In this document: positions 1,108-23,152 of the stretch, one piece after another
How the letters are laid out: the number at the start of each line of letters is the position of its first letter
Numbering within the stretch: position 1 is the stretch's first letter
From: a virus
IMG/VR virus record: IMGVR_UViG_3300028430_000124
Span: 1 to 24,394 of that record
Reading direction: 5' to 3' (one strand)
Length of the DNA stretch: 24,394 nucleotides
Made by a program: the position numbers and the translations under genes
Notes under the pieces: generated by a model
What the model was told of the DNA's origin: nothing
Seen by the model: only the letters and a program-made list of their open reading frames with translations
Database searches by the model: none

Positions 1108-2648
1108 TGACAACTAAAACTAAACTGCACGTTAAACTTAAAAAAGAAAAAACTGGTATTTTATCACCTTTTGCCACAAAAATTATTAATGAATTCCAAA
1201 ATAAACAAAACCCACCTAATAAATTTAATAATTTTAAAATGCCAGAACAATTCGGCAAGACGCCAACCCTCACTACAGATAGTGGAGCAGTATTTGATAA
1301 TAATAGTTTGCCTATTAATTCATGTGGGCAAATTAATCAATCAGAGTTAAAATCATTAGTTAATAGCTATTTTATGGGTTACCCTGCATATTCTATTTTG
1401 TCACAAAATGGAATTTTACAAAATATAATACAATCTTATGCTCAACAATGCGTGAGAAAATGGGTTGACATAAAAAGCCGTAACAATTCTAAAGATGATA
1501 AACACGACAAAATAAACGCTATTCATAAAAGAATGGAAGAGTTAAAAGTAAAAGAGAATTACCGATTAGCCACCGAGATGATGGTAATGTTCGGGGGTTG
1601 TAAAATGTATCATAAAATCAAAGGCGATGATTTAGAAGATGAATATTTAACACCACTATATATAAAACAAAAAGTAAAAAAAGGGGATTTATTATATATA
1701 AAAGTTGTTGAGCCATTGTATGCAACTCCTTTAAACTTCAATACCACCAACCCACTTTCTGAAAATTTTTACGAACCGCAAGAATGGAATGTTTTAACTA
1801 CAACATTGCATACAAGCCGTTTATGTCATTTTTCATATAATTATGTTCCAACTTTGTTAAAACCAGTGTATTGGTTTAATGGCATGCCATTGATACAACT
1901 TGTATTGTCTTATTTGATTGGCTTTGAAAGCGTTAGAAAAGATATTATAAACGTTGTTAGTAGATATAACATCAATGTATTTAGCACGTCACTAGATGCG
2001 TTATTGAATTATGATGGCAATTCTACATTTCAAGATGGTGAGGATTGCTACTCAAGACTTAAATTAGCCCAAGCTATTATGTCTAACTTTTCAATATTTG
2101 CTATGGATAATAACCCAGAAGCTCCAGAAACTTGGCAACAATTTAATATGACAATTGCAGGATTAAGTGAAATATTATCACAAAACGCTGAGTTAGTTTG
2201 TGCTGTTTGTAGAATGCCATCTATTATTCTTTATGGCACAAGTCCCAAAGGATTTAATTCAACTGGAGATGTAGAATTAAGAACGTTCTATGATCTAATA
2301 TCTTCAATTCAAGAAGCTAATTTATTGCCTAGTTTACAAATAACATTTAATCTTATTCAAATGGATTTATTCGGCGAAATTGATGACGACTTGTTTATTG
2401 AATTTAATCCATTGTGGACTATGTCAGAACTCGACCAAAGTCAAATTAATCTTAATACTATGAATACCGATGTTGGCTACGCAACTGCTGGAATTATCGC
2501 AACACAAGAAATCAGACAAAAATTAGCAGCCAATCCCAAATCTGGCTATGATAATTTAATGAGTGATATTCAATTTGATAGTTTAATGGATGAAATGAAT
2601 GAAGAAGAAACAAGAGAAAGTCAAAACGATAGCAATACATCAGACTAA
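1107..2648 (+). CDS. Portal protein, DUF1073 / HI1409 type
   Basis: This protein forms the dodecameric ring at the head vertex through which DNA enters and leaves. The 513-residue length and motifs fit the DUF1073 (TIGR01555, HI1409) portal family. It has an early helical segment with QQCVRKWVDIK (about residues 112-122), a core with FGGCKMYHKIKGDD (about 152-165), and the family hallmark LYGTSPKGFNSTGDVELR followed by FYD and an IQE helix (about residues 375-405). The position between terminase and an F-like head protein agrees. The start overlaps the terminase stop by one base. The C-terminus is acidic and its last 50 bases are shared with the next gene in another frame. Databases sometimes label this family 'anti-CBASS Acb1-like'; there is no C-terminal extension here that would hold such an enzyme. 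Confidence 0.9.
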   Translation: MTTKTKLHVKLKKEKTGILSPFATKIINEFQNKQNPPNKFNNFKMPEQFGKTPTLTTDSGAVFDNNSLPINSCGQINQSELKSLVNSYFMGYPAYSILSQNGILQNIIQSYAQQCVRKWVDIKSRNNSKDDKHDKINAIHKRMEELKVKENYRLATEMMVMFGGCKMYHKIKGDDLEDEYLTPLYIKQKVKKGDLLYIKVVEPLYATPLNFNTTNPLSENFYEPQEWNVLTTTLHTSRLCHFSYNYVPTLLKPVYWFNGMPLIQLVLSYLIGFESVRKDIINVVSRYNINVFSTSLDALLNYDGNSTFQDGEDCYSRLKLAQAIMSNFSIFAMDNNPEAPETWQQFNMTIAGLSEILSQNAELVCAVCRMPSIILYGTSPKGFNSTGDVELRTFYDLISSIQEANLLPSLQITFNLIQMDLFGEIDDDLFIEFNPLWTMSELDQSQINLNTMNTDVGYATAGIIATQEIRQKLAANPKSGYDNLMSDIQFDSLMDEMNEEETRESQNDSNTSD

Positions 2649-3390
2649 TGAATCTGATGTTATTACATATGAAGCTGAATTATCTCTATTAACTAAAGAA
2701 ATGATAAAAGAATATTACAAAGCTATTTTATTATACTATAGGCAATACCGCACCTATATTGTTAATGATATTAACGTCGTTGGTGGATTAGAAGATATTA
2801 TTAATAGAATAGGTAAAAAGTGGCATGATATATTTATTAAAAAATCTGATAGATTGGCTCAAAACGTAGTTTATACTGCTAAAGATTTTAGCAATAGACA
2901 ATTTAAACGAATAAAAGAAAATAATCCATTTTTATTATCAGATACAAAAGATTTTCAACAAACTACAAAAATAGTAGAAGCTTCAATTATAGAAAATATA
3001 AGATTGATAAAATCTATACCTGAAGAATACCACAATAAAATACTTGGCTCGGTTATGCGTTCTGTTGGAAGTGGTGGTAATTTAAAAGAATTATCTGAAG
3101 ATTTGTCAAAGATAAGCAATCAAACTAAAAAACGTATTAATCTTATTGCAAGAGACCAAATGGCTAAAGCAACTGCATTAATTAACCAACAAAATGCAGT
3201 TGACGCAGGATTTACTACAGCAGTATGGAAGAAATCAATCGCAGGTAAAACTCATAGACTTTCACATGCTCAAGCAGATGGCAAAGAGTTTGATATTACT
3301 AAGGGTTGTTTGATTGATGATGAATATATTTTGCCTCGTGAAAAAATTAACTGCAAGTGTTCTTATAAATTAATTGTAAAAATAACTTGA
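2599..3390 (+). CDS. Minor head protein, Mu gpF / SPP1 gp7-like
   Basis: Head morphogenesis protein that in relatives (Mu gpF, SPP1 gp7) joins the prohead near the portal and may affect DNA ejection. Of its 263 residues, the N-terminal two thirds is helical and lysine-rich without clear motifs. The C-terminal third is the recognisable Phage_Mu_F domain: LIARDQMAKATALINQQNA, then AGFTTAVWKKSIAGKTHR, a histidine-rich turn and the closing INCKCSYKL motif. The chosen ATG at 2599 overlaps the portal by 50 bases. The next in-frame ATG at 2701 would remove 34 residues, and no strong ribosome site separates the two choices, so the exact start is uncertain. The last bases of the gene form part of the following promoter. 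Confidence 0.82.
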   Translation: MKKKQEKVKTIAIHQTNESDVITYEAELSLLTKEMIKEYYKAILLYYRQYRTYIVNDINVVGGLEDIINRIGKKWHDIFIKKSDRLAQNVVYTAKDFSNRQFKRIKENNPFLLSDTKDFQQTTKIVEASIIENIRLIKSIPEEYHNKILGSVMRSVGSGGNLKELSEDLSKISNQTKKRINLIARDQMAKATALINQQNAVDAGFTTAVWKKSIAGKTHRLSHAQADGKEFDITKGCLIDDEYILPREKINCKCSYKLIVKIT

Positions 3391-3416
3391 CAAGTTAATA
3401 ATTTATATGGTATCAT
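3387..3416 (+). promoter_or_regulatory. Sigma70-type promoter inside the structural operon
   Basis: A perfect -35 box TTGACA (3387-3392) is followed after 18 bases by the -10 box TATCAT (3411-3416). The bases TGG just before it add an extended -10 element. Transcription should begin near 3422-3424, giving a leader of about 110 bases before the protease-scaffold ATG. The -35 box overlaps the stop codon of the upstream minor head gene. This is the best promoter I see on the plus strand between terminase and fibre, so capsid genes may be transcribed independently of packaging genes. No transcript data are available. Confidence 0.6.
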
Positions 3417-3420
3417 TGCT

Positions 3421-3436
3421 CAATTATTAATAATTG
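3421..3436. promoter_or_regulatory. Perfect 16-bp palindrome at the expected transcription start
   Basis: CAATTATTAATAATTG reads identically on both strands. It begins 5 bases after the -10 box of the promoter at 3387-3416 and therefore covers the expected +1 site, a typical place for a repressor operator. In AT-rich DNA such a palindrome can arise by chance, and no second copy was noticed, so operator function is an inference from position. Confidence 0.35.
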
Positions 3437-3531
3437 TATATTCCAAGACGTTGTGATAACGGCTGGGAGTAGGCTTATTATCTTTAAATAGTCTACTCTA
3501 AAATCTTTAAAAAGAAAAATAAAAGTAGGTT
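3437..3531 (+). promoter_or_regulatory. Structured 5' leader of the protease-scaffold gene, possible translational switch
   Basis: This is a 141-base gap in an otherwise gapless operon and contains no plausible gene. Hairpin 1 pairs TCCAAG (3442-3447) with CTGGGA (3463-3468) with one mismatch, and CGTT with AACG, leaving loop GTGAT. Hairpin 2 pairs GAGTAGGCT (3467-3475) with AGTCTACTC (3490-3498), which is 9 bp with one G-U. The same right arm (3490-3497) can instead pair with AGTAGGTT at 3524-3531, 8 bp with two G-U, directly against the ATG at 3532. Hairpins 1 and 2 also share bases 3467-3468. The leader can therefore fold in mutually exclusive ways that expose or cover the start region. 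There is no U-run, so hairpin 2 is not a normal terminator. It matches no riboswitch class that I recognise. Confidence 0.4.
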
Positions 3532-4767
3532 ATGTCTAATTCTTCAATCAATAAAACAAACAATTTAGCAAGTGTAGTGGCTGATAGCAATCGCACGGAG
3601 CAACCATTTAATTATTTAACTGTAGAAAATTGTGTTTTAACTGGGGCTGATGTAGCTAAATATTTTGGGTTTGAAGTTCCTAATTTTAAAAATTTGGGAT
3701 TAGACCCCACTAAAATATATTCAGTTTATCGACCACAACAAGAAATCAGAAACTCCAACTTTAATTTAAAACCGTTATTATCACGACATATTGATTTTTC
3801 GGCTGATGACTATAAGCATAAATTTATAGTGGGAACTGTCGGCGATACTCGTATGCAAGGTGAAGAACTCCGAGCCACAATTGAATTTTGGTCACAAGAA
3901 GCAATTGACATGCTTAACAAAGGTGTAAAAAAATTATCATGTGGTTATACTTACACAGCGGTGGTTGAATCTGGTATTTATAATGGTCAATCTTATGACA
4001 TTATAATGACTGATATTGAGGCAAATCATGTAGCAATGGTTGACAATCCTCGTTACAAACCTGCAATAGTTGCAGATGAACAATTTTCTATTAACAAACT
4101 TTTAAAAAGGGTTAAGCAAATGAGTTTTTTAAGTAAACTTAAAAGATTAGTAATGGATGAAGATACTATGTCTTTTGATGAAGGTATTGAAGCTACTAAA
4201 AGTATAATGGCTAATGATAGCTTAAGCGAAGAAGAAAAAGAAGAAGCATTATCAGAGCTTAAAGAAAAAGGCAAAAAGTCTGAAGCTAAAGACGAAGAGC
4301 TAAAAGCTAAAATGCAAAAAGCTACTGAAGTTGCTGGTGACGAAGATGAACCAGAAGAAAAAGGCAAAAAGTCTGAAGCTAAAGATTCAGAGAAAAAAGT
4401 TGCAATGGATGCAGATTTTATAAATAAAATAGAAGCTGTAATTGAAAAACGTGTACAAGAAGCATTAAACAAACATAGCTCTAAACGCAGTGTGTTTGAT
4501 TCAGCTTTGGAAGAATACACCAGAACCTGCGGTCAAGCTAATAAAATGGTTTTTGATAGTGCGGATGAAGTTTACAATGCTATATTAAAAAATAACAAAG
4601 TAAATTTTGATGGCAAAACTTTAGCACAAAAACAAGCTATGGTTGAAATGATTCCTAATGTAAAAAAACAATCTTATCAAAAAATAGTGCATGATGGATA
4701 TTCAAATTCGACAAAACCAAAAATTCCAACTGATTTAGCTAATTTTTTAAAATCGAAAGGTGTATAA
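3532..4767 (+). CDS. DUF2213 prohead protease-scaffold fusion protein
   Basis: A 411-residue capsid maturation protein. Residues about 25-185 form the DUF2213 protease-like domain, related to HK97-type prohead serine proteases. Candidate catalytic residues are His86 in LLSRHIDF and Ser136 in KKLSCGYTY, followed by the typical NHVAMVDNPRYKPAIV strand (about 165-180). Residues about 197-320 are highly charged and predicted coiled or disordered (scaffold-like), with a duplicated EKGKKSEAKD segment. The C-terminus (about 325-411) is a compact domain that may contact capsid protein. The ribosome site is weak (AGTAGG only two bases from ATG) and lies in a leader that can pair with it. Placement directly before the cement and major capsid genes is usual for this role. 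Catalysis is inferred from family resemblance. Confidence 0.82.
   Translation: MSNSSINKTNNLASVVADSNRTEQPFNYLTVENCVLTGADVAKYFGFEVPNFKNLGLDPTKIYSVYRPQQEIRNSNFNLKPLLSRHIDFSADDYKHKFIVGTVGDTRMQGEELRATIEFWSQEAIDMLNKGVKKLSCGYTYTAVVESGIYNGQSYDIIMTDIEANHVAMVDNPRYKPAIVADEQFSINKLLKRVKQMSFLSKLKRLVMDEDTMSFDEGIEATKSIMANDSLSEEEKEEALSELKEKGKKSEAKDEELKAKMQKATEVAGDEDEPEEKGKKSEAKDSEKKVAMDADFINKIEAVIEKRVQEALNKHSSKRSVFDSALEEYTRTCGQANKMVFDSADEVYNAILKNNKVNFDGKTLAQKQAMVEMIPNVKKQSYQKIVHDGYSNSTKPKIPTDLANFLKSKGV
4120..4767 (+). CDS. Nested in-frame scaffold protein (internal start)
   Basis: An in-frame ATG at 4120 (Met197 of the larger protein) begins MSFLSKLKRLV, exactly where the protease domain ends and the charged scaffold region begins. 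A ribosome-binding sequence AAAAAGGG (4104-4111) stands 8 bases upstream. The product would be a 215-residue scaffold lacking the protease. Lambda C/Nu3 and related phages make a separate scaffold from an in-frame internal start in the same way. The need for far more scaffold than protease makes this sensible. It is inferred from the ribosome site and domain boundary; only protein data could confirm it. Confidence 0.5.
   Translation: MSFLSKLKRLVMDEDTMSFDEGIEATKSIMANDSLSEEEKEEALSELKEKGKKSEAKDEELKAKMQKATEVAGDEDEPEEKGKKSEAKDSEKKVAMDADFINKIEAVIEKRVQEALNKHSSKRSVFDSALEEYTRTCGQANKMVFDSADEVYNAILKNNKVNFDGKTLAQKQAMVEMIPNVKKQSYQKIVHDGYSNSTKPKIPTDLANFLKSKGV
4262..4385 (+). repeat. Direct repeat of 31 bp in scaffold coding region
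   Basis: Bases 4262-4292 are repeated exactly at 4355-4385, a spacing of 93 bases or 31 codons, so the reading frame is kept. The repeat encodes EKGKKSEAKD twice. It lies in the charged linker of the protease-scaffold protein and probably arose by a tandem duplication whose middle has since diverged. Confidence 0.9.
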
Positions 4768-4770
4768 ATT

Positions 4771-5316
4771 ATGACTTTATTTGCAGATAGTCAACAAAAA
4801 GCCTCTAATCCTTCAGCATTTCAAGCTGGTGTTCCAACTCAGAATTTATTAGATGGCTACACTTCGGCAGCTCAAGCAGCGACTGACTTATTAGTTGCTT
4901 CAGGTTGTTATTATGGTGATGTCAACGGGGTTGATACTACAGTTCAACAAACAACTGCTAGTGTTGGTGCTAATTTATTTGCTGGAGTGGTATTACGTAC
5001 TAACTCTAACGCAATGCCATTTAGCCAATCGTTACAAGGTTTTTCGGCAAAAATACCAGCTGGGTTTTCTAATGCGGAGTTTTTAACTCGTGGAAGTGTT
5101 CCTGTGTATATAGCGTTAGCCAATGAAGCAGGAGATGTTCCATTATTGGGTTCAGCAATTTATTGTATGCTTGATGGCACATTTCAAACTCAAACAGTTG
5201 CAGGAGTAGCACCAGTTGGTGGTACATTAACTAATTTTAGAGTTAGACAAGTTCCAACAGGTTGGACAGCAGGCGCTATTGTTGTAATTACTAACACACA
5301 GAATGTAGGAGCTTAA
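4771..5316 (+). CDS. Capsid cement / decoration protein (Gp24-like)
   Basis: A 181-residue, glycine- and threonine-rich, beta-strand protein. It resembles the structural cement proteins coded between scaffold and major capsid genes in DUF2184-type phages. Such proteins bind the outer surface at capsid contacts and stiffen the head. The recognisable pattern is an internal FAGVVLRTNSNAM strand (about residues 70-83), then an IPAGF turn and LTRGSVPVYIA (about 105-115), typical of this fold. The last third ends in short strands. The start follows the scaffold stop by three bases. The assignment rests on length, composition and location more than on catalytic motifs, so confidence is moderate. Confidence 0.62.
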   Translation: MTLFADSQQKASNPSAFQAGVPTQNLLDGYTSAAQAATDLLVASGCYYGDVNGVDTTVQQTTASVGANLFAGVVLRTNSNAMPFSQSLQGFSAKIPAGFSNAEFLTRGSVPVYIALANEAGDVPLLGSAIYCMLDGTFQTQTVAGVAPVGGTLTNFRVRQVPTGWTAGAIVVITNTQNVGA

Positions 5317-5317
5317 T

Positions 5318-6397
5318 ATGTCAATTGAGAAAATGGATACTCACGAAATCGTTAATATGTATCAAGAAAAATTTGGAATTCATTTTAATAACATGAATCC
5401 AATCGTTACAGATAGCGATTATGAATTTAAAAATAAAGCGTTAACCATGGATGCGGACACGTTTGCATACAATCCAGCATCTTCAGGTGTTCCAGCTTGG
5501 TATACATTAGTAAACTTAAATAAAGTTGTTGCGCAGTTATTAATTAAACGTGCTTATATGCAAATTGGAGACCCGTTACAACAAGGTAACTTTGAAACTA
5601 ATAATATGCAATATGCCACATCAGCATTAAGCGGGCAGGTTGAATCATATGGTGACTTTGTTGCAACTACTATATCTGATAATAATTATACTTATCCTAC
5701 TCGTGAAGTATATCGCGGACAAACCGTGATACAGTACGGAGAGTTAGAAGTTGCGACTTTAAGTGCTGCCAAAATTGATGCAATTAGTCAAAAACAATAC
5801 TCCGCTTCAATGGCAATCGCAATTGCTCAGAATAAAATGTTTTTCTTTGGTAATTTAAATTCAGCAGGTGCGTTTATTACTCATAATTTTGGATTATTGA
5901 ATAACCCACAAGCTAATAGTGCAACTCCTGCTACTAATGGCACAGGAAGTAGTCCGCTATGGAGTGATAAGGCACAACGTGGAGCATCTCAAGACATAGC
6001 TAACGATGTTATTGTAACAGCTTTTAATGTTATGCAAGATCAAATGGGTGGTAACATAGATTTAACTGATAAATTTAAACTATGCGTATCAACTACAGCT
6101 TCCGCTTATCTTAACGCAACAAATTCTTTTGGTTTAAATGCAACTGAAATTATTAAACAAACTATGCCAAATGTTGAATTTGTATTTGCACCAGAGTACG
6201 CTATTATTGGTTCATTCCAATTGATTGCAATTGACGCTATGCAAGAAAATATGGTAAAAGATTTGTTTACATATAAAATTCGCAGCCATACTCTAATCCC
6301 TTCTGAGAGCGGCGCTAGACAAAAGTGGTCGTTTGGAAGTGCAGGTTGTGGAATTTTAAACAATGCACCAGTTGTAACTATTTCAGGAATTGAATAA
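5318..6397 (+). CDS. Major capsid protein, DUF2184 family
   Basis: The 359-residue main shell protein, expected to have the HK97 fold. The N-terminal 45 residues (MSIEKMDTHEIVNMYQEKFG and onward) may be the delta-like region removed or rearranged at maturation. The centre has a strand-turn region with YRGQTVIQYGELEVATLSAA and the long helix AKIDAISQKQYSASMAIAIAQ, followed by KMFFFGN. This arrangement is typical of DUF2184 capsid proteins. The C-terminus has the capsid-like strand FTYKIRSHTLIPSESGARQKW and ends with a GCGILNNAPVVTISGI strand. A good ribosome site (GTAGGAG) lies before the ATG. Its place after protease-scaffold and cement genes supports the call. Confidence 0.85.
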   Translation: MSIEKMDTHEIVNMYQEKFGIHFNNMNPIVTDSDYEFKNKALTMDADTFAYNPASSGVPAWYTLVNLNKVVAQLLIKRAYMQIGDPLQQGNFETNNMQYATSALSGQVESYGDFVATTISDNNYTYPTREVYRGQTVIQYGELEVATLSAAKIDAISQKQYSASMAIAIAQNKMFFFGNLNSAGAFITHNFGLLNNPQANSATPATNGTGSSPLWSDKAQRGASQDIANDVIVTAFNVMQDQMGGNIDLTDKFKLCVSTTASAYLNATNSFGLNATEIIKQTMPNVEFVFAPEYAIIGSFQLIAIDAMQENMVKDLFTYKIRSHTLIPSESGARQKWSFGSAGCGILNNAPVVTISGIE

Positions 6398-10574: not shown

Positions 10575-11021
10575 ATGCAAAAAGAATTTAAATTCAGTAT
10601 TCAAGACAATGAAAAAACGCTAAATTTTATTGCAATTAGATTAGCACCCTTTGAACAATTTAACTTAATTCTTAGAATTATTGGTATAGTGTCAAAAGGT
10701 AGTTTAACTAATAATGCACAAGTAGAGCAAGTATTACATAACGTATTTCAAACCGGTAAAGAAGTTGAAAATGTAAAATCTAAAGCAGATGTTAATACTT
10801 TTGCTTTAATACTTGACGCAATAAAAGGAGCTATCGCGGCGCTAAGTGATAATGATAGGGATTGGCTATTGACAGAATTACTTAAAAATGTTAAAATTGA
10901 CAAAGGTCAAAGTTATATTATTACAGCTACTATTGACGAACTTAATAATGAACTATCAGGATTTAAACCTATCCTTAAATTATTAACCGAATTAGTAAAG
11001 ATAAATTTAGGTTTTTTGTAA
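10575..11021 (+). CDS. Tail assembly chaperone, short (unshifted) product
   Basis: A 148-residue soluble, helix-rich protein between the tube and tape measure genes, the standard place for the lambda gpG-type chaperone that coats the tape measure during tail assembly. It starts with a small strand region (MQKEFKFSIQDNEKTLNFIA) and continues as helices. It ends GFL just after a slippery T_TTT_TTG stretch (11012-11018), which allows a longer product. The sequence itself matches no family that I can name, so the role comes from position plus the frameshift signature. Chaperones of this type are absent from the mature virion. Confidence 0.78.
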   Translation: MQKEFKFSIQDNEKTLNFIAIRLAPFEQFNLILRIIGIVSKGSLTNNAQVEQVLHNVFQTGKEVENVKSKADVNTFALILDAIKGAIAALSDNDRDWLLTELLKNVKIDKGQSYIITATIDELNNELSGFKPILKLLTELVKINLGFL

Positions 11022-11263
11022 CTCGTGAAAAAATAGACATACCATATTTTTATGTTGATTCTTCATACTGTATCGGACATAAAAACTTATTGCCTATTTT
11101 TTCTACAATCATTACACATAAACTAGCAACTTTGTATGAATTGCGAAATATGTATTATTATGAAGAAGCATTGGATTTGTTTGAAAATATTCTTATTAAT
11201 AATTATAATGAATATTCACATAATGAAATTCAAAGATTAAAAGATGAAGCAGGTGTTAATTGA
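10575..11263 (+). CDS. Tail assembly chaperone, long product by -1 ribosomal frameshift
   Basis: A gpGT-like fusion. Ribosomes that slip back one base at 11012-11018 leave the first frame after residue 148 and continue in the -1 frame for 81 more codons to TGA at 11261-11263, giving about 229 residues. The added part starts VTREKIDIPYFYVDSSYC, has no ATG near its start that could serve as an independent gene, and fills the 240-base gap before the tape measure. The -1 frame is open only from 10979 onward, so the slip must occur within a 40-base window that contains the heptamer near its end. Lambda and many other tailed phages use the same device to bring the tape measure to the tube. The T-like tail includes aromatic and acidic helices (MYYYEEALDLFENIL). 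Confidence 0.85.
11012..11018 (+). other. Slippery heptamer T_TTT_TTG for -1 frameshift
   Basis: In the chaperone frame the codons read GGT TTT TTG TAA. The heptamer T TTT TTG fits the X XXY YYZ rule, lies one codon before the stop, and leads into an open -1 frame. No strong hairpin or pseudoknot is evident just after it, so stimulation may come from the neighbouring stop codon or from a structure I could not fold by eye. Confidence 0.8.
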
Positions 11264-22400: not shown

Positions 22401-22920
22401 AGTCCCCAGTGCAATAACTGAAACATTTACAGTTGGCGATACTAAGACAGGACTTCAATCAGCTGACCACAGTAATTGGTTATTGTGGACAAATGGGCGT
22501 ACTTTATCAAGAGCAACATATGCAACGCTTTGGAATTTTGTAAATACTAATTCATTAGTTGCAACTGGATTGTTTGGTGCTGGCGATGGAGCTACAACTT
22601 TTACATTAGGTAATATTAACGGGAGAGCTATTGGTATCACAGGTTCTGGAACTGGATTAACAGCAAGAACCCTAGGGGCTTCAGTTGGTACAGAAACCCA
22701 AACATTAACAACTGCAAATCTTCCATCGCATAACCATAATATTATTGGAGATTCAGGCAGTGGCATAGGTTCAGGTAGTACATCCGATAGAGTTTTACTT
22801 AATACAGATGGAGATGTAAGAAATGTTTTTGTAAAAACCACTGAATTAACAGGGTCAGGTACTGCACATAATAATATGCAGCCTACTGTATTTCTTAACT
22901 TCTTTGTGTTTAGTGGGTAA
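19438..22920 (+). CDS. Large tail fibre / spike with beta-helix, jelly-roll and collar domains
   Basis: An 1160-residue host-recognition protein built of several modules. An N-terminal attachment part (about 1-120) contains PTTKALTVDLSADKIPSYDEYADLP. Repeats at about residues 388-415 and 760-787 carry TMPTNT and NxTGSTAxP motifs. A likely right-handed beta-helix (about 425-670) starts VTPLGSDTNNGYTPSTGVATLGQAL, as in tailspike and pectate-lyase-like folds. A C1q/TNF-like jelly-roll (about 836-990) follows, and a tail collar domain (about 1000-1160) has LLWTNGRTLSRATYATLWNFV, SHNHNI and the ending HNNMQPTVFLNFFVF. It probably forms a trimer. The helix may bind or cut a surface sugar, but no catalytic residues can be assigned. 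The ribosome site TAGGGGG lies before the ATG. Confidence 0.8.
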   Translation: MATAYPKILPYPNLLNSNGGGDGATSIEVTSTDNTVTQNGASSFNPTTKALTVDLSADKIPSYDEYADLPDPTTVELRSYAAVNQTTQTGGQLQTAGIYNILTVGGVEGQYWSFLGEYPDNITIKYGNEVLYVNTGTSANQILQLDGNAKIPAVDASQTTVGTVVPTNAIVSDNDSINTSVNKLQGQIDNALKPLSPAVNNNIVTTTNSGTLKDSGFNINNSLPYSNPLPTEIADALSTYNLIISVANGTNGLPPVSLYFDTNQTLSGLPTQGDYTCVDNDRVILTNQTNPAENLIYNVHSGEWTIAPDSAKVNKLLGAWTEIVKGTFSNSWTYLVSISPASGDVVPTSVTWSIPIPSGLYQAGAGLSLTGSVFSVADNGVTNTKLNTMPTNTIKANITGSTANPQDITIAQLNTSLSVNTNTQYVTPLGSDTNNGYTPSTGVATLGQALTNLGNVAGIIFISPKVGGYSGDYTITSQNINIVSLSPNQAVDFNGTLTFAHTASNVQLNNISCEILNHTGAGAVYMFGGSVTTSLTSSGNGYLYTSGVDLQATATTVSITGAKSVVFTNATVLGQLTINNPSAIVSLLNCLNSKAITLTSGVLGINNSTIYSASAGANAISVSPEAFFFATNSTFLVTNTTTPALINVDAGSVYSISNCAYSDSSVIAGTMLTRTGKFDAIALTTALPFASGGTGAKTRQAALNALASTVTTGQYLRGNGTNISMSAIQASDVPTLNQNTTGTASSVTGTNVVTNANLSTMPTNTLKGNNTGSTATPIDLTSTQVTAVLNNFVGDTGSGGTKGLTPAPGAGDGEAGKFLKADGTWAIPNGSGTSATYFRSYNIGATNGTAIQTITTTGTANWLTVTAAAQRLILNGNTLQNGGFTNSAVDVTIPTSGIYTITYTVTTTVIGLTNREIWVQLVKTTGGTPLAILASAELNGGSNNNGEITITYTGAFTVGDIIDLRMETIAGTPNVGINSYSLLINALAVPSAITETFTVGDTKTGLQSADHSNWLLWTNGRTLSRATYATLWNFVNTNSLVATGLFGAGDGATTFTLGNINGRAIGITGSGTGLTARTLGASVGTETQTLTTANLPSHNHNIIGDSGSGIGSGSTSDRVLLNTDGDVRNVFVKTTELTGSGTAHNNMQPTVFLNFFVFSG
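20599..21780 (+). repeat. Diverged repeat within the large fibre gene
   Basis: Bases from 20599 and from 21715 both begin ACAATGCCAACAAATAC and continue with similar codons, encoding TMPTNT(I/L)K followed by NxTGSTAxP. The two copies are 372 codons apart and flank the beta-helix region, so they may act as shaft linkers on either side of it. Similar fibre repeats can recombine to swap domains. Confidence 0.7.
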
Positions 22921-22932
22921 TTTGTAATATTA

Positions 22933-22965
22933 ACTGTCGATTAATTAGTCGGCAGTTTAGATTTA
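22933..22965 (+). terminator. Possible intrinsic terminator after the large fibre gene
   Basis: ACTGTCGATT (22933-22942) pairs with AGTCGGCAGT (22947-22956), 10 bp with two G-U pairs and an AATT loop. The following bases TTTAGATTT contain Ts but not an unbroken run, so termination may be partial. It begins 12 bases after the fibre stop and ends before the ribosome site of the next gene, which would allow some read-through to the lysis genes. Confidence 0.4.
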
Positions 22966-22975
22966 GGAGGTTTCT

Positions 22976-23152
22976 ATGGATTTTAGTAATATATTAGATA
23001 AATTACATTTTACTACAATTAACATAATTGCCCTTTTTACTGGTATAATAACGATACCAGTGTCTATATTTATTTTATTAACTCGTAGCATATTTTATAA
23101 ATATAAAGATAAACAATTTTCTATTAATTTAAAGGATAACCAAAATGTATAA
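22976..23152 (+). CDS. Small single-span membrane protein, 58 residues
   Basis: A short gene with a strong ribosome site AGGAGG (22965-22970) five bases before its ATG. The 58 residues have a polar N-terminus (MDFSNILDKLHF), one hydrophobic span at about residues 15-36 (INIIALFTGIITIPVSIFIL) and a basic C-terminal tail (FYKYKDKQFSINLKDNQNV). It overlaps the next gene by eight bases. Small membrane proteins next to a lysozyme are often holins, antiholins or pinholins, but with a single span and no known motif I leave the role open. Confidence 0.68.
   Translation: MDFSNILDKLHFTTINIIALFTGIITIPVSIFILLTRSIFYKYKDKQFSINLKDNQNV

Follow-up and report, generated by a model that had tools for sequence, protein, structure and literature searches.

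The window analysed here, i.e., the whole stretch of 24,394 bases of the IMG/VR virus record IMGVR_UViG_3300028430_000124 (33% G+C), comes from a small, contractile-tailed freshwater phage and carries its head-tail operon, with genes for the terminase large subunit, the portal, a gene-F homologue, a DUF2213 head maturation protease, a small head protein and the capsid, and, in the tail part, the tail sheath, the tape measure and more tail genes. The cultured relatives are distant: Acinetobacter and Pseudomonas phages have portals with about 30% identity to that of the window. All features described below lie on the plus strand. The Mu gpF-like head morphogenesis gene (gene F) occupies positions 2599–3390 (Pfam Phage_Mu_F, E = 7e-11; PHROG 324, E = 2e-51), and the gene at 3532–4767 is the head maturation protease/scaffold gene (Pfam DUF2213, E = 2e-29; PHROG 2229, E = 1e-64), in line with the original prediction, which had called it a protease-scaffold gene.

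Gene F stops at 3390 and the protease gene begins with its ATG at 3532, which leaves 141 non-coding bases (3391–3531) in between. A gap of this size with a promoter had been described as unusual in a nearly gapless operon; the gap is real and contains a promoter-like site. Nowhere else in the head-tail block is there a genuine non-coding gap, since the stretches 11022–11259 and 22921–23144 hold ORFs. The former, the other large gap within the operon, is covered by a frameshift-type ORF (10979–11263), which overlaps the 3' end of the 10575–11021 gene at GGTTTTTTGTAA, just before the tape measure gene, and looks like the programmed frameshift product of a tail assembly chaperone pair. The gap 22915–23145, upstream of probable lysis genes, holds an unlisted small ORF from 22976 with a good ribosome site (AGGAGG).

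The promoter-like site at 3387–3416 is of the sigma-70 type, TTGACA-18-TATCAT with a TG ahead of the −10 box; it matches the consensus at 11 of 12 positions and is kept in the related sequences L003 and L006. Within the first 12 kb no promoter-like site is better and one equals it; by a position-weighted score it is the second in the window. Its −35 box is overlapped by the gene F stop codon. The adjoining start-site block (3415–3435) is identical in L006 at 21 of 21 bases and contains a perfect 14-bp palindrome, AATTATTAATAATT (3422–3435). Judging by the distance from the −10 box, transcription would be expected to start near 3422–3423.

Downstream of this block, four arms can pair in different combinations. 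Arm 1 (UAUUCC, 3439–3444) pairs with 3466–3471 within arm 2 (GGAGUAGGCU, 3466–3475), which can alternatively pair with arm 3 (AUAGUCUACUCU, 3488–3499); arm 3, in turn, can pair with arm 4 (AGUAGGUUAU, 3524–3533), which includes the weak ribosome site and the AU of the start codon. Between arms 1 and 2 lies the core AAGACGTTGTGATAACGGCT (3445–3464), a candidate recognition element identical in L006 at all 20 bases, with a small hairpin CGUU:AACG (3449–3452:3458–3461) inside it. The helices 1:2, 2:3 and 3:4 comprise 6, 10 and 10 bp, respectively. Since arm 2 is common to helices 1:2 and 2:3 and arm 3 to helices 2:3 and 3:4, the fold 1:2+3:4 and the fold 2:3 are mutually exclusive; according to the calculations, the first covers the protease start and the second leaves it exposed.

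These pairings had been proposed from the sequence with slightly different boundaries. The right arm AGTCTACT (3490–3497), the left arm GAGTAGGCT (3467–3475) and AGTAGGTT (3524–3531) do pair as first described. The upstream hairpin, given as 9 bp with one G-U pair, exists but is longer, 10 bp (3466–3475:3490–3499) with two G-U pairs, and the start-covering helix, given as 8 bp abutting the ATG, has 10 bp (AUAGUCUACU, 3488–3497, with AGUAGGUUAU) and takes in the first two bases of the start codon. The other hairpin, placed at 3442–3468, does compete with the left arm, but it shares six bases with it rather than two and extends over 3439–3471; we redraw it as UAUUCC (3439–3444) paired with GGAGUA (3466–3471), enclosing AG:CU and CGUU:AACG.

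The stability of the folds was compared with that of shuffled sequences. Hairpin 2:3 alone stands out clearly (z = −4.5 in the window and −4.1 in L006), and the whole 139-nt leader is only mildly more stable than its shuffles (z = −1.9). A start-covering helix of 10 bp arises alone in 2.7% of shuffles, and one whose 5' arm is common to an upstream hairpin in 0.7% of dinucleotide shuffles; the 26 other starts of the window that were compared all lack this layout. When arm 2 is blocked, helix 3:4 is predicted in the window, L003 and L006 with a probability of 0.74–1.0 per pair. For a window transcript ending just past the AUG, the predicted minimum fold is 1:2+3:4, and in the calculated ensemble of the same transcript at 37 °C the start is covered in about 24% of molecules versus about 75% with 2:3. 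With 20 nt of coding sequence added, the calculated share of the start-covered helix at 37 °C is about 2% in the window and 45% in L006. At this temperature and for almost all transcript lengths, hairpin 2:3 is predicted to dominate in the window and in L003; the start-exposing fold is ahead by roughly 1–3 kcal/mol in the window, and the two folds of L006 are nearly equal in energy. The balance between the folds, as modelled, differs between relatives, i.e., it is not conserved.

The leader is known from the window and L001 and L002, which are identical in it, from L003, and from L006, so that three distinct leaders can be compared, two of them nearly identical. L003 has a protease 97% identical to that of the window. 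L006 ends early within its protease gene and appears to be continued by L004, a sequence of the same sample with about 80% identity. Scans of viral and genome collections and blastn of phages and plasmids gave no further leaders, and the core region had no blastn match in E. coli genomes. Matches to the hairpin pattern (L007–L012, L014–L023) and to the core pattern (L026, L079–L081, L086–L094) were rejected, as they lie in unrelated contexts. It should be noted that about 40–50 residues near the N-terminus of the L006 protease (5845–6003, compared with 3532–3570 of the window) are absent in the window and L003, and that this extra stretch lies directly behind the conserved leader.

Between the window and L006, fourfold-degenerate sites of the portal, gene F and protease genes are only 37–42% identical, while the leader blocks are kept, which indicates that the constraint on the leader exceeds that on adjacent silent sites. 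Arm 3 is fully identical (also in L003) and arms 2 and 4 nearly so; the spacers between the arms vary in length and sequence, and the arms themselves hardly vary. Pair counts were taken from alignment A4, because the MAFFT alignment A7 placed arm 4 of L006 wrongly. Helix 3:4 keeps all 10 pairs in the window, L003 and L006, the single L006 change (U-G to U-A) preserving the pair; arm 4 also serves as the ribosome site, which gives its conservation another possible cause. Hairpin 2:3 has 10 of 10 pairs in the window and L003 and 9 of 10 in L006, where a U.U mismatch occurs. Stem 1:2 has 6 of 6 pairs in the window and L003 and 5 of 6 in L006, with four consistent one-sided changes overall. In arm 1 of L006 four positions are changed, three of them with pairing preserved (U-G to C-G once and C-G to U-G twice), and the outermost pair is lost. 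We estimate from base composition that this agreement in L006 would arise by chance in roughly 2–6% of cases. The sole difference between the window and L003 over the 141 bases of the leader, A3468G, pairs with U3442 or U3497, depending on the fold.

When the partner columns were slid against each other, pairing fell from 98% to 35–52%, a control that favours a structure drawn from the same sequences. Double-sided covariation was found at no pair among the three distinct leaders aligned, and since all changes are one-sided, the covariation evidence is suggestive rather than proof. The original prediction had proposed to test aligned leaders for compensatory changes; consistent one-sided changes are there, but a compensatory double change is not. 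As to the predicted competition of the helices, conservation above that of the surrounding genes and the pairing-preserving changes speak for the helices; with no double-sided covariation, three distinct leaders and a predicted fold balance that differs between them, a role as a regulatory switch is plausible rather than proven.

We compared the leader with known RNA elements. Rfam 15 gave no match in the window at the gathering threshold, and the sub-threshold matches were weak and unrelated. Tandem hairpins are predicted in the present leader; the HK022 put-type antiterminator RNA has a pair of stem-loops shortly after a promoter, through which RNA polymerase is modified. In a translational riboswitch, the core sits in a stem whose 3' strand also belongs to an expression platform, by which the ribosome site is either masked or freed. 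Here an aptamer-like core lies 5' of the start codon (3445–3464, identical at 20 of 20 bases in one independent comparison), and the calculated folds include exclusive helices of the expression-platform type, one of them over the ribosome site; the likeness is known from computed folds alone, and the downstream gene, unlike those of riboswitches, is a virion assembly gene.

Known phage systems share parts of this layout. The mRNA of lambda cIII has alternative structures whose balance is reported to be temperature-dependent (Altuvia et al. 1989, as described in PMC4166951). It resembles the present case in that the 5' leader of a phage gene can adopt either of two exclusive folds and one of these lies partly over the ribosome site (PMC4166951); two exclusive folds that affect ribosome access are also what is calculated here. 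It differs in that cIII acts in the choice between lysis and lysogeny (PMC4166951), whereas here the gene is that of a head protease, and in that the present leader has an extra arm round an invariant core; the likeness drawn here is one of layout. The operators of T4 genes 32 and 43 serve autogenous repression, with a repressor site that extends over the ribosome site (PMC3014915). They, too, are structured leader elements tens of bases 5' of the start (PMC3014915), but in the present case a competing RNA helix, not a protein, would cover the ribosome site. In T4 genes e, soc, 49 and I-TevI, the Shine-Dalgarno sequence and/or the AUG is buried in an RNA helix (PMC3014915), and the protease start could be buried in the same way through arm 4.

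Several identities were considered and rejected. In gene e the burying fold belongs to a long early read-through RNA (PMC3014915); the corresponding RNA of the window (3250–3600) is predicted to keep hairpin 2:3 in both the minimum and the centroid fold, with the start open. For an RNA thermometer, the predicted response is inconsistent: between 15 and 37 °C, warming lowers the share of the start-covered fold in the window +3 transcript, leaves it flat in the window +20 transcript and raises it in L006. An intrinsic terminator or attenuator is contradicted in the window by the tail UAAAAUCUUU, which has no U tract, and the hairpin is not among the terminator-like sites of the window; a weak U tract, UAAUUUUU, follows the hairpin only in L006. 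A GTG mini-ORF at 3453–3491 (12 codons, covering the core and arm 2 and ending in arm 3) has no evident ribosome site and was rejected as a leader peptide. Coding constraint fails to account for the core, because L006 has another peptide of another length, while no codon position of the core has changed. With Rfam unmatched and the thermometer and gene e comparisons negative, the leader is placed in no named family; by analogy it is most like the lambda cIII leader and riboswitch expression platforms, and it is a candidate new element, of a general type already known.

The promoter-like site, the four arms, the conservation of the arms and the mutual exclusivity of the folds are supported by sequence and computation. 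Our leading interpretation, to which we give a little less than an even chance, is that the gap holds an internal promoter and a structured 5' UTR with a two-way fold able to shut down translation of the protease. The promoter would feed the protease, small head protein and capsid genes. In the open state, arms 2 and 3 would be paired and the ribosome site of the protease accessible; this would be the default, since hairpin 2:3 is the first to be transcribed and no less stable than its competitor. In the closed state, arm 1 would capture arm 2, the stem would close round the invariant 20-nt core, and arm 3, thus freed, would pair with the ribosome site and the AUG, blocking translation. A putative factor bound to the core could stabilise stem 1:2 and so close the switch, the simplest candidate being a phage head protein or other late protein acting as an autogenous repressor. 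The transcription start, the direction of control and the binder are inferred. We can suggest only tentatively that this is an undescribed phage RNA element whose core detects a factor of the phage or its host, so that the protease and capsid cassette has its translation switched and the assembly of the shell is timed or balanced.

Two other explanations, a constitutive protective leader and a DNA operator, are serious rivals. In the first, which we consider somewhat unlikely, hairpin 2:3 and the core hairpin would simply shield the mRNA or hold the ribosome site accessible, helix 3:4 being incidental. The dominance of hairpin 2:3 in the window and L003 at 37 °C, its early formation and its excess over shuffles fit this, and leader structures of phages do act in mRNA stability and translation (PMC3014915). 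It leaves unaccounted for, however, the 10 pairs between arms 4 and 3 that survive a substitution and the drift of arm 1, which mostly preserves pairing with arm 2, and hairpin 2:3 has no need of an invariant 20-nt core.

The conserved blocks could instead be mainly DNA sites, namely a promoter and an operator (AATTATTAATAATT at about +1 to +14, with the dyad CGTTnnnnnAACG) for the transcriptional timing of the capsid, which we think improbable. In its favour are a perfect, conserved palindrome at the predicted start, a dyad inside the core and the promoter-like sites at the corresponding place in other phages. On the other hand, arms 3 and 4 are a long way 3' of the promoter, the core has no second copy in the window, and palindrome-like sites elsewhere occur at near-chance frequency; the loop of hairpin 2:3 is shorter by 7 nt in L006, so an RNA hairpin fits better than a protein site of fixed spacing.

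Much less probable is a small non-coding RNA of about 80–100 nt ending at hairpin 2:3, with only a secondary effect on the protease: small genes, promoters and terminators do occur after gene F in other phages, and in L006 UAAUUUUU directly follows the hairpin, but in the window UAAAAUCUUUAAAA comes next, the hairpin is not called as a terminator, and the conservation of arm 4 is left unexplained. Chance complementarity in an AT-rich gap, the least credible explanation, could draw on the whole-leader z and the frequency of the lone 10-bp helix in shuffles, but the conservation far exceeds that of the near-saturated synonymous sites and the changes preserve pairing; for the leader as a functional element a chance origin is largely refuted, whereas for helix 3:4 alone it may still hold.

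The proportions in which a phage makes protease, scaffold and capsid, and the timing, have to be right. On the modelled folds, the leader could plausibly serve as an on/off switch for making virus shells. If this holds, an RNA switch ahead of the capsid cassette would offer a testable handle on assembly control in a small contractile-tailed phage, and control by refolding of the leader, known for a small number of phage genes, would extend to a virion-assembly gene.

The junction between gene F and the protease gene was also compared in other phages. Relatives that keep the gene without the pairing would count against the original prediction, and one such case in part was found: L029 (portal 48% identical) has the protease gene overlapping gene F, and the leader is absent. 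The folded leader seems, from these comparisons, to be a local addition seen in this clade alone. Promoter-like sites at the junction rank first to third of the locus in L034, L037, L075, L077 and Pseudomonas phage Orisa03; no such top-ranked site was found there in L035, L056 and Acjo_20. As such sites recur after gene F, separate transcription of the capsid cassette seems to be recurrent in the group and may be common in it. Clusters of small genes stand at the junction in Acjo_20 (L082), Acinetobacter phage IME-AB2 (L083) and Orisa03; those ahead of the protease in Acjo_20 and IME-AB2 are of unknown function, and by them the place looks like a hot spot for insertion. Terminator-like hairpins occur at the junction in loci of the L035 type, L075 and Orisa03. 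In L035, L036, L037, L045 and L054, a short ORF resembling a membrane peptide overlaps the gene F stop codon; together with a hairpin that looks like a terminator (GGTCGC..GGCGGCC TTTTTT), it lies between gene F and the protease gene. In L085 (Orisa03, 5173–5292) and L075 (231–449), gene F is followed by a terminator-like hairpin and, directly after it, by a near-consensus promoter, both ahead of the next gene.
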